Assembly (NCBI GenBank): GCA_020723015.1
Contig: DYJR01000006.1
Location: 1 to 33,796 of the forward strand
Length of the DNA: 33,796 bases
Origin: Arcobacter nitrofigilis
GTDB taxonomy: Bacteria; Campylobacterota; Campylobacteria; Campylobacterales; Arcobacteraceae
Direction of reading: 5' to 3'
The notes beneath the pieces are model-generated. The model was not told the origin of the DNA. It saw only the letters and a list, made by a program, of their open reading frames with translations, and ran no database searches. Shown in pieces: positions 4,651 to 28,376 of this stretch. How positions within the stretch are numbered: position 1 is the first letter of the stretch; each line of letters begins with the position of its first letter. Position numbers and translations under genes: made by a program.

Positions 4651-4743
4651 CAATTGGTTATGAGTTATCGGTATATTAGTTAATTTAGTGTATTAGTAGG
4701 AAATATTTTCTTCCCAATATACCAATTACCAATACACTAGTTA
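4651..4743. repeat. Imperfect inverted repeat of TATTGGT-type words between trpF and dnaQ-like gene
   Basis: Both arms carry related words: GGTATATTAGTTAATTTAGT on the left, and on the complementary strand of the right arm GTGTATTGGTAATTGGTATA. The two sides can fold over a short AT-rich centre (4701-4712). The right arm runs into the trpF stop codon, and the left arm ends just before the AGGA of the dnaQ-like gene. Similar TTGGTTATTGG words recur at 6031-6059. Confidence 0.5.
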
Positions 4744-5969: not shown

Positions 5970-5986
5970 TAAAGTCCTTTAATATA

Positions 5987-6059
5987 GCGACCGAGAAATT
6001 GAGCGACTGAGGAACTAAGCATTTATGCTAATAACCAATGCACCAATAACCAATCAACC
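5987..6059. repeat. Two 16-bp tandem units (GACTGAG family) plus 15-bp ATAACCAAT tandem repeats
   Basis: 5987-6002 (GCGACCGAGAAATTGA) and 6003-6018 (GCGACTGAGGAACTAA) are adjacent copies of a 16-bp unit also found at 14749-14792 and 25962-26036. 6031-6045 and 6046-6059 are adjacent copies of ATAACCAATGCACCA-like sequence. The block sits between rpe and rpmB, next to the rpe ribosome-binding site. The rest of the gap (6060-6140) is AT-rich and unremarkable. Confidence 0.65.
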
Positions 6060-6142
6060 GAAAATTTATAATTAAAAACTCGAAATTTCAAATTCATCAT
6101 TAATCAATCGTAGAATCTTATCATACTTTAAGTTAATTTAGG

Positions 6143-14740: not shown

Positions 14741-14748
14741 TTTAAGAA

Positions 14749-14792
14749 GAGACTGAGAGACTGAGATTTTTATTGCTTAGTTTCTCAGTTTC
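14749..14792. repeat. GACTGAG-family inverted repeat in the hemE leader
   Basis: One direct unit (14749-14764, GAGACTGAGAGACTGA) and one inverted unit (14777-14792, TTAGTTTCTCAGTTTC) form an imperfect stem of about 16 bp with a 12-base loop. It ends nine bases before the AAGGA of hemE. Without a T-run it is not a standard terminator. Confidence 0.65.
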
Positions 14793-14812
14793 TTTTAAAA
14801 AAGGAATAATAA

Positions 14813-23984: not shown

Positions 23985-24001
23985 TATTTTACCTTTTTGG
24001 A

Positions 24002-24056
24002 ACGCCAGTTTTTAACTGGTGAAATAAACATGAAATCACCTGTTAAAAACTGGCGT
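24002..24056. repeat. Long inverted repeat (21-bp arms) between htpG and lipoprotein gene
   Basis: Arms 24002-24022 (ACGCCAGTTTTTAACTGGTG...) and 24036-24056 pair in 20 of 21 positions around a 13-base AT-rich loop. No T-run follows on either strand, so it is not a classic terminator. It may be an mRNA-processing or attenuating element between htpG and the lipoprotein gene, or a mobile palindromic repeat. Confidence 0.75.
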
Positions 24057-24069
24057 GCCATAAGTCTTC

Positions 24070-25938
24070 CTAAAACACTTTAGCCATAACGCTATTTAGT
24101 CTTTTTGCAAAACCGATAGGGTCTTTTATCTCCATACCTTCGCTTATTTTTGCATTATCTAGTAATAACCAAGAAATATCGGCTATTAGACTATCATCTG
24201 CACAACCGTTTAACTTTTTGATTATATCATGGTCTGGGTTTATTTCCAAAATAGGTGCAGATTCAGGCATCTCTTGTCCCATTGCTCTAAACATATGAGC
24301 CATAGAAGCCATAGGGTCGTTACCGTCTTTTACTACACAACTTGGGCTATCACTTAATCTGTTTGTTACTTTTACATCTTTTACGGCGTCACCTAAGTTT
24401 GATTTGATTTTTTCTACTATTGATTTGTATTTCTCTTCAATCTCTTTTTTCTCTTCTTCACTTTGCTCCGATGCCGGTGCTTCGCAAGATGTGATATCTT
24501 TGAACTGCCACTCTTGGTATGCTCCAAAAGCAGGAGTGATAATATCATCTATCTCTTTATCGTCAAGGATAAGTACTTCTATATCTGCTTTTTTGTAGCT
24601 TTCAAGCAACGGTGAGCTTCTTAAAATCTTCTCATTTTCACCTACGATATAATAAATAGCTTTTTGCTCCGTAGAAGCTCTATCTTTATACTCGGCAAAT
24701 GACGTCATACCGTCAACTTTTGTTGATTTATATCTTAAAAGTTCTAAAATTGCCTCTTTGTTTGTAAAGTCTTGATATGCACCCTCTTTTAATGCTCTAC
24801 CGAACTCTTTATAAAACTTCTCATATTTCTCTTTGTCTTCACTAAGCTTTTTGAACTCTGCAAGAAGTTTTTTAACACTTGATTGCTTGATATTTGCTAA
24901 AATTCTATTTTCTTGTAGAATTTCTCTACTTACATTTAGCGGTAAATCTTCACTATCTATGATACCTCTTACAAATCTTAGATATGTTGGGAGAAGTTCT
25001 TTATCATTATCAGTAATAAATACCCTTTTTACATAAAGTTTCACGCCGCTTTGATAATCTACCCTATACATATCAAAAGGTGCTTTTTGCGGTATGTAAA
25101 ATAGTGTAGTGTAGTTATTTACTCCTTCTGCTTTCGTATGTACGTGAAGTAATGGGTCGGTACTATCGTGAGAAATAGATTTATAAAACTCATTATACTC
25201 TTCAGGCTTTATTTTTGATTTAGGCAATGTCCAAAGAGCCGTAGCAGCATTTATTTGCTCACATTTAGATTCTTCTTTTTTCTCTTTCGTATCTTTATCT
25301 TCTACCTCTTCTTTGTAGTTCAAAAAGATTGGATAAGCTATATGATTTGAATATTTTTTTATTATATTTTCGATTCTCCATCTACTTGTAAAATCTTCTA
25401 CTTCATCATCTTTTAACTTGATATAGATTACCGTACCTTGAGATTCTTTTGTAACAGGTTTTATTTCAAACTCGCCCTTACCGTCACTGCTCCATTTGTA
25501 TGCTTGTTCGCATCCTGCTTTTTTGGTAATAACATCAACATAATCAGCCACCATAAAGACGGAATAAAAACCTACCCCAAATTGTCCTATTAGGTTACTA
25601 TCTTTTTTTGCATCACCGGTAAGCTTTTCTATAAACGACTTTGTACCGCTTTTTGCAATAGTTCCTATGTTATTAATAAGGTCTGTTTCATCCATACCTA
25701 TACCGTTATCGGAAATTATCAAAGATTTATCATCTTTATCAAAACTTATGTTGATTTGCGGAGTCCACTCCAAACTTTTCAAAGACTCATCTGTCAAAGT
25801 TAAATATTTTAGTTTATCAATAGCATCACTACTATTTGATACAAGTTCTCTTATGAAAATCTCTTTATTTGAGTAAAGCGAATGTGTCATAAGATATAAT
25901 AGTTGCCCTACTTCCGTTTGAAATTGTTGTTTTCCCAT
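24070..25938 (-). CDS. htpG: Chaperone HtpG (bacterial Hsp90)
   Basis: 622 residues, the normal length. The GHKL ATPase domain is intact: LVSNSSDAIDKL with the catalytic Glu in the preceding FIREL, DNGIGMDE, and GQFGVGFYSVFMVADY. The middle domain has VKRVFITDNDKELLP and LNVSREILQENR with the Arg that contacts ATP, followed by the dimerising C-terminal domain. The ATG at 25938 is preceded by AAGGAGA. Regulation is visible: a CIRCE-like operator lies about 155 bases upstream, and a hairpin-forming repeat sits between it and the ribosome-binding site. Confidence 0.97.
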   Translation of the reverse strand: MGKQQFQTEVGQLLYLMTHSLYSNKEIFIRELVSNSSDAIDKLKYLTLTDESLKSLEWTPQINISFDKDDKSLIISDNGIGMDETDLINNIGTIAKSGTKSFIEKLTGDAKKDSNLIGQFGVGFYSVFMVADYVDVITKKAGCEQAYKWSSDGKGEFEIKPVTKESQGTVIYIKLKDDEVEDFTSRWRIENIIKKYSNHIAYPIFLNYKEEVEDKDTKEKKEESKCEQINAATALWTLPKSKIKPEEYNEFYKSISHDSTDPLLHVHTKAEGVNNYTTLFYIPQKAPFDMYRVDYQSGVKLYVKRVFITDNDKELLPTYLRFVRGIIDSEDLPLNVSREILQENRILANIKQSSVKKLLAEFKKLSEDKEKYEKFYKEFGRALKEGAYQDFTNKEAILELLRYKSTKVDGMTSFAEYKDRASTEQKAIYYIVGENEKILRSSPLLESYKKADIEVLILDDKEIDDIITPAFGAYQEWQFKDITSCEAPASEQSEEEKKEIEEKYKSIVEKIKSNLGDAVKDVKVTNRLSDSPSCVVKDGNDPMASMAHMFRAMGQEMPESAPILEINPDHDIIKKLNGCADDSLIADISWLLLDNAKISEGMEIKDPIGFAKRLNSVMAKVF

Positions 25939-25961
25939 AATAAATTCTCCTTCTTTTTAAA

Positions 25962-26036
25962 GTAACTGAGAGACTAAGTGACTGAGAAACTAAGTTTGAA
26001 TTGCTAAGTCTCTCAGTTTCTAAGTTTCTCAGTCTC
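25962..26036. repeat. Two direct plus two inverted 16-bp GACTGAGAAACTAA units in the htpG leader
   Basis: 25962-25977 and 25978-25993 are direct copies (GTAACTGAGAGACTAA, GTGACTGAGAAACTAA). 26005-26020 and 26021-26036 are the same unit inverted. The whole can fold into a long stem around an 11-base loop. It ends about eight bases before the htpG Shine-Dalgarno sequence. Confidence 0.8.
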
Positions 26037-26091
26037 TTATGCAAAATTTTAACACAAACTTTATAAAAGTTCACTAAAGTTTTTTTAATAA

Positions 26092-26118
26092 TTAGCACTC
26101 GATATTCAAAAGTGCTAG
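26092..26118. promoter_or_regulatory. CIRCE-like operator (HrcA binding site)
   Basis: TTAGCACTC, a 9-base spacer, then AAGTGCTAG. This is the CIRCE layout (TTAGCACTC-N9-GAGTGCTAA) with a perfect left half and 7 of 9 matches on the right. It lies between htpG and the divergent gene at 26192 and could repress either or both through HrcA. hrcA itself is not in the window. Confidence 0.75.
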
Positions 26119-27435: not shown

Positions 27436-28376
27436 CTTAGTTTCTCCAGTACGTCTGATGAGGTGATTTGCTTCATACACTCATGATGACCCAACGGACA
27501 CACTCTTTTCATACATGGAGCACACTCCATATCTTTTCTTATTATGATTTCATTTGGGTTGTTCCATTGGTGTGTTTCTATATGTTTCGTAGGACCGAAT
27601 ATCGCTACTGTTTTTATCTTAAATGCGGCAGCTAGGTGCATTGGACCGCTGTCGTTCGTGATAAATAAATCAAGATTTTTGATGTATTCTATAAGTTTCG
27701 TTACGGTTGTCTTACCTGCTAGATTAGTGTAATTTGATATGCCAAAACTTTTTAGATATTTTTCTATTTCTCTTGCTTGTTCTACCTCAGTAGGACCTCC
27801 GAAAATCAGAATATCGTACTCTTTACTCAACTCTTTAGCCGTCAATGCAAACTCTTTTGGATACCATCTTTTGGCACTTCCGTATGTTGCACCTGGATTT
27901 AGACCCAACAATGATTTTGAATGTTGAATGTTGAATGTTGAGTTGGTATAGATTTTTAAATCACCGGCTTGATAATTTGTTTTTAGGCAGTGATTTACAA
28001 AGTCGTTATATCTAAGTACTAGATGGATTTGCTCTTTGGTAAGTCTTTTATAACCGTATTTTTGCCTTGCACTTACAAAAAACTTCAACACTCTAGCACT
28101 AAAAGACCTTCTAAAAGAGAAAAATACTTCTACTTTGCCGAAAGATTTGGCAAGATTATAGATATTTAGATACCTAGAACCACCTTTTTTTGTCTCATCT
28201 ACTATTATTTGTGATATTTTCGGGTGAAATTCAAAGATTTTGACCGATACATTGGAACCTAAAACAATATATTTATAGCTATCTCCGAAATGTTGTATTA
28301 TGTTTTCTATTGCAGGTGTTGCCATCACGGCATCACCTAGCCATGTAGGTATTTGCATAACTATCTTTTTATCCAT
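27432..28376 (-). CDS. waaF: Lipopolysaccharide heptosyltransferase II
   Basis: 314 residues from the ATG at 28376 (MDKKIVMQIPTWLGDAV...), which overlaps the upstream stop by eight bases; an earlier codon at 28400 is less likely. GT9 family: IPTWLGDAVMATPAIENI at the N-terminus, NPGATYGSAKRWYPKEF, and FITNDSGPMHLAAAF in the ADP-heptose site. The WaaF-specific C-terminal CAPCMKRVCPLGHHECM is also present. It adds the second heptose to the inner core of LPS on the cytoplasmic side. A 7-bp tandem repeat (27917-27941) encodes residues about 146-153 and could permit slippage. Confidence 0.92.
   Translation of the reverse strand: MDKKIVMQIPTWLGDAVMATPAIENIIQHFGDSYKYIVLGSNVSVKIFEFHPKISQIIVDETKKGGSRYLNIYNLAKSFGKVEVFFSFRRSFSARVLKFFVSARQKYGYKRLTKEQIHLVLRYNDFVNHCLKTNYQAGDLKIYTNSTFNIQHSKSLLGLNPGATYGSAKRWYPKEFALTAKELSKEYDILIFGGPTEVEQAREIEKYLKSFGISNYTNLAGKTTVTKLIEYIKNLDLFITNDSGPMHLAAAFKIKTVAIFGPTKHIETHQWNNPNEIIIRKDMECAPCMKRVCPLGHHECMKQITSSDVLEKLR
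27917..27941. repeat. Heptanucleotide tandem repeat (TTGAATG, about 3.6 copies) inside waaF
   Basis: TTGAATG occurs at 27917-27923, 27924-27930 and 27931-27937, followed by TTGA. The unit is not a multiple of three, so gain or loss of one copy would shift the waaF frame. It encodes the variable-looking NSTFNIQHSK stretch. Confidence 0.8.

Follow-up and report, generated by a model that had tools for sequence, protein, structure and literature searches.

Dispersed hairpins of tandem 7-8-nt words in Arcobacter nitrofigilis, with words that differ between sibling species at orthologous sites

Short elements built from tandem arrays of degenerate 8-bp words, many of them paired into hairpins, are scattered between the genes of Arcobacter nitrofigilis and two of its congeners, and a considerable number of the sites carry an array of a different word in a sister species. 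We consider them to be dispersed, slippage-prone 'word hairpins', most likely selfish or neutral, which are tolerated and not selected and whose words turn over in place, and assign this reading a probability of about one half. The unusual part is the in-place replacement of words between sibling species, for which we found no description in the portion of the literature that was searched, which is no proof that none exists. Earlier reports of heptamer and octamer repeats are piecemeal, stem from several bacteria and carry the label of regulator sites. Sibling genomes with different words at the same positions, together with an empty outgroup, provide a natural experiment in which function can be told apart from turnover, and this genus thus makes it testable whether such arrays originate by slippage, copying or templated rewriting.

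The host genome (G000) is a MAG of 1.50 Mb in 103 contigs that is 87% complete, and G001, G002 and G003 served as congeners. Its HemE protein is matched best by uncultured Arcobacter/Aliarcobacter, which places the host among the Arcobacteraceae. All counts rest on pattern searches and sampled stretches rather than a full census, with mechanically called open reading frames; word families were sorted by eye, and genes outside the window were named by eye from their sequence.

Word arrays in the window

In the window, i.e., the complete stretch of 33,796 nucleotides that was analyzed, a previous sequence-only reading had recognized a 16-bp unit repeated in direct and inverted form upstream of htpG, hemE and rpe, and had described it as modular, palindrome-forming, intergenic and unlike REP, ERIC or CRISPR designs. 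This description is correct and all three loci are confirmed by the sequence, except that the true unit is an 8-bp word, ACTGAGNN, with a period of 8 and not 16, two words making up the 16-mer. A 14-mer search with up to three mismatches yielded 14 matches in the window as opposed to 4.97 expected, a number reached by 0 of 100 shuffled sequences. The following features were recorded:

25960-26037, htpG leader element (htpG on the minus strand, start at 25938): imperfect hairpin with four-word ACTGAGNN arms at 25960-25995 and 26004-26037 and a short loop; from sequence and fold
14745-14797, hemE element: hairpin with a 10-nt loop between arms of about 2-2.5 words; from sequence and fold
5984-6079, rpe leader insertion: ACTGAGNN words in four degenerate copies (5987-6019, alternatively 5989-6019), then CCAATAAC words (6029-6060); from sequence
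4652-4738, related hairpin of another word (ATTGGT / ACCAAT) between a trpF-like gene (stop at 4741) and the next minus-strand gene; from sequence and fold
27917-27941, TTGAATG heptamer array of 3.6 copies within a glycosyltransferase-like open reading frame; same array class, but coding

The htpG element is located 22 nt upstream of the start codon and immediately 5′ of the Shine-Dalgarno (SD) sequence. Two direct and two inverted 16-mers, that is, four words in each arm (25964-25995 and about 26005-26034), form its stem, which folds with a z of -4.9 relative to shuffled sequences; the element is the same in G001 and missing in G003. At hemE, two words (14751-14766) and two inverted words (14776-14790) lie after the stop codon (14740) of the preceding gene and before the hemE SD sequence, and fold on the sense strand with a z of -7.6 against shuffles. 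The rpe insertion consists of two distinct word families instead of complementary arms, its direct words have no inverted partner, and it does not form a hairpin (z +0.3 against shuffles). It is restricted to the host: in G001 and G003 the matched flanks are separated by just 3-4 bases. The ATTGGT-word hairpin includes a period-7 array at 4714-4734.

Upstream of htpG, at 26092-26118, TTAGCACTC-N9-AAGTGCTAG resembles the CIRCE operator (HrcA). Relative to this candidate operator, the word hairpin would be part of the transcribed htpG leader.

Occurrence and anatomy in the host and its relatives

In the host MAG, the two-word pattern ACTRAGNNACTRAG has 36 matches, which fall at 20 loci; G001 has 58, G002 has 22 and G003 has none, and the other 96 relatives contain 0-3 matches per genome. 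A reversed control pattern gave 0 matches in each of G000 to G003, the host included. The genome-wide search that had been proposed along with the 16-bp unit therefore finds it far above chance and well beyond the three loci of the window. As the repeats are present in a single-contig genome (G002, 2,243,170 bp) and at identical sites across separate assemblies, they are not an assembly artefact. The intergenic enrichment, which had also been suggested as a check, is evident: of the 20 host loci, 18 lie between genes, compared with approximately 7% intergenic DNA in the sampled host sequence (12,922 of 193,796 bases).

The elements are roughly 40-90 bp in size and typically have the form ACTGAGNN ... 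loop ... NNCTCAGT, with two inverted arrays of degenerate 8-bp words. By a strict test, 20 of the 42 intergenic elements catalogued in three species are two-armed and 22 are one-armed, some of the latter being chimeras with a second word family. Arm order is constant in all 20 two-armed elements, with ACTGAG first and CTCAGT second. The elements commonly occupy, and often fill, the gap from a stop codon to the following SD sequence. Flanking genes are arranged in tandem in 34 cases, divergently in 3 and convergently in 3, which is close to the background in the host sample (145, 19 and 21, respectively), and no functional theme was noticed among the adjoining genes. Arrays inside genes were seen on the stop-free strand. 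In one host stretch (L011, 1433-1529), a word hairpin is situated between a GGAGG-like SD sequence and the ATG of a leuS-like gene, so that it would take the hairpin to bring the SD sequence and the start codon together.

The ACTGAGNN elements belong to a wider class of arrays. A sequence-blind detector found 17, 14 and 11 intergenic period-7/8 arrays in G000, G001 and G002, compared with 0, 0 and 1 in shuffled sequences; other periods stayed near background, and samples of two other genera contained 3 and 0 such arrays. The words encountered comprise ACTGAGNN, ATTGGTA, AATGTTG, GGTTGAA/GGATGAA, GTCGTGA, TTAATTA, CTATCAA, GGTAAAA and TTTTAGA, most of which are poor in G on one strand (e.g., ACCTTCA, ACCAATA, ACATTCA and ACTATCA). 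Weaker cases exist in other Campylobacterales: stretch L072 holds a word hairpin, and G099 has hairpins of the GGTTGAA type. G003, which has no ACTGAG words, contains a single 149-bp array of AGTCAAT/AGTCGTT heptamers (L309, 18168-18316) in which one word seems to be giving way to another.

Different words at orthologous sites

The flanks of 37 element loci and of the three window sites were searched in the four genomes and the gaps between them were compared. Of 23 orthologous sites in G003, 22 have no word array. A sister species contains an array of a different 7-8-nt word at about 15 sites. The hemE gap, for example, is filled with ACTGAG words in the host and with a GGATGAA/GGTTAAA hairpin in G002, and is empty in G003, while site L146:6600 carries ATTGGT, ACTGAG and TTAATTA words, one per species, in three species. 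Even within tsaD- and aroE-like genes, differing arrays occur at one and the same position across three species.

With a word-agnostic detector, another array was found at 6 of 11, 4 of 7 and 7 of 21 orthologous sites without ACTGAG words, whereas ordinary junctions held one in 7.6%, 6.7% and 6.6% of cases (Fisher p 0.0002, 0.001 and 0.0009); these values are weaker, though still significant, than those of a test whose patterns were partly taken from the switched sites. Since other arrays at orthologous sites exceed those at ordinary junctions, the sites appear, judging from these sequence comparisons, to be older than their words. The chimeric elements (at rpe and in L142 and L146) may represent intermediates of such a word change.

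Origin of the elements and possible roles

For the elements as dispersed, mostly neutral or selfish hairpins, we propose the following course. A founder hairpin would have spread by copying to numerous gaps that separate a stop codon from the next SD sequence, presumably where an insert does the least harm. Its arms would then grow and shrink in steps of 7-8 nt via replication slippage and would be re-homogenized or replaced, so that the words change and the site stays. Positioned directly upstream of the SD sequence, the hairpins, at about -15 to -40 kcal/mol, would influence expression, if at all, as a secondary effect. Slippage is supported by exact multi-copy runs (nine copies of GAGACTGA, five of CTATCAA) and by copy-number steps of 8 bp; a truB-like gene has four words in G001 versus one in G002. 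Dispersal is supported by the occurrence of one word at 20 loci and of the loop motif TCTTGCTTAG at four different loci, five of its six occurrences falling within elements and one elsewhere in approximately 1 Mb. It speaks against this account that both processes are needed, as pure slippage would not place the same word at as many as 20 loci, and in-place word replacement is not explained by dispersal alone. Replacement may come about by recurrent loss and insertion, by recombination with the flanks, or by contraction, mutation and re-expansion. We also entertain, as a tentative and rather improbable extension, that an active process rewrites the words in place, by which the whole array would be exchanged for another 7-8-nt word at a site that persists, frequently together with its hairpin form, even inside tsaD and aroE, such that a genome would draw on a limited set of shared words and sibling species would differ in this set.

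The sequence-only reading had offered an RNA-structure module as one possibility, and an intercistronic or 5′-leader hairpin that stabilizes mRNA or tunes translation of the next gene, selected on structure and not on sequence, would agree with the common position directly 5′ of SD sequences, with the strong folds at htpG and hemE and with the fact that several sites can still form a hairpin after a word switch (e.g., hemE and L146:8453), which could reflect selection for structure. Nevertheless, we judge it unlikely. A sense-strand bias suspected from hemE and a few others failed over 25 elements, with the sense strand as the better-folding one in 9 and the antisense strand in 15 (p 0.16). 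In aligned orthologous hairpins, a comparison of limited power with two or three species per site, 198 pairs were invariant, 11 were changed on one side, 6 were broken and 0 showed compensatory changes on both sides. The covarying stems named earlier as a check are thus not found in these alignments, even though occurrence above chance and at further loci speaks for the original observation. Whole word families are swapped at one site, the same genes lack elements in G003, roughly every second intergenic element scored as single-armed, and the genes have no functional theme in common. At gathering thresholds, the window matched no Rfam covariance model. More specific RNA functions were rejected as well: no T tract follows the hairpins in the sequences read, as would befit a terminator, and the htpG SD sequence lies outside the hairpin, contrary to an SD-sequestering thermometer.

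Plain simple-sequence slippage, acting independently at each site and with no dispersal, would account for exact 7-8-nt runs in differing copy numbers and is in line with the heptamer bias of long bacterial simple repeats (summarized in PMC4679880). We consider this reading distinctly unlikely, however, given one word and one loop motif at many unrelated loci and the constant arm order in 20 of 20 two-armed intergenic elements; moreover, among 70 stretches of a viral collection that carry three tandem words, none scored as two-armed. The latter count also led us to discard phage spread. Stretch L348 of the same collection looks two-armed by eye, with other words.

The closest precedents, three systems with the same ingredients, are known from other bacteria. 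Geobacter metallireducens contains paired octanucleotide and heptanucleotide arrays, 'predicted global regulator binding sites' of classes 1-3 (PMC2700814), with 3-5 tandem degenerate 7-8-nt words, opposite-strand pairs and dozens of copies. The elements described here likewise consist of multicopy tandem 7-8-nt words (periods 7 and 8 only), with two opposite-strand arrays in 20 of 42, but the Geobacter words differ (GTTGCTYN, TCTCCGTS and MTYCTGA), and the part of that report considered here holds no comparison of words at one site between species. By analogy, the elements might be sites for a DNA- or RNA-binding global regulator that reads 7-8-nt words, and the architecture, including the variable distance between opposite-strand pairs, matches (PMC2700814). 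We are very doubtful of this idea, given that sister species differ in the word at the same gene, that arrays also lie within genes and that the genes are without functional theme; for Geobacter, regulator binding is put forward as a proposal in PMC2700814. TAACTGA heptamer repeats of marine Beggiatoaceae, Cyanobacteria and Bacteroidetes (PMC4679880) are similarly tandem, intergenic, directly upstream of start codons and patchy in phylogeny, and in open reading frames mainly take the reverse, stop-free orientation. As far as described there, they differ in being direct (with one indirect case), in having a single exact word and in that canonical SD sequences are rare nearby. In the P6b hairpin of the Nostoc tRNA-Leu intron (PMC3488679), degenerate heptamers pair, copy number varies and Class 1 and Class 2 repeat motifs occur at one position, but the account given there concerns one intron locus and not hairpins dispersed between genes.

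The suggestion of a small mobile palindromic element stands as far as dispersed copies, presence or absence among congeners and a loop motif common to non-orthologous copies are concerned; a transposase, a target duplication and a fixed end were not seen. REP sequences and their RAYT enzymes likewise involve dispersed extragenic palindromes, but REP sequences, as portrayed in PMC3733652, are 20-40 bp long and mostly GTAG- or CGTC-tagged. The word hairpins, at about 40-90 bp, consist of variable word arrays, and by eye lack such a constant tag. Dispersed palindromes, sites that are empty in some species and shared loops would fit a REP/RAYT- or MITE-type element with a dedicated transposase, which we regard as highly improbable: Y1 transposase (PF01797) is present in one copy each in G001 and G002 and in neither G003 nor the host MAG (87% complete), no arrays adjoin these genes, and pairs of empty and filled sites, inspected by eye, reveal variable element ends and no evident target duplication. 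An element linked to reverse transcriptase was dismissed, the enzyme being confined to G001 and without flanking arrays, as was a CRISPR array, which would have identical direct repeats of about 24-40 nt set apart by unique spacers, the degenerate tandem 8-bp words having no spacers.

Other palindromes occur in the same surroundings. Behind htpG (23995-24063) lies a member of a second dispersed family, TGGAACGCCAG...CTGGCGTGCCA with GGAACCCCAG-like variants, and similar copies are found in or adjoining word elements of G002 (L162, L180, L208 and L211). In other Arcobacter-type genomes (L063, L065, L075 and L105), the hemE gap contains a different hairpin, GGTCCCTTAAAAATAGGGACTATTTTTAAGG and variants thereof.
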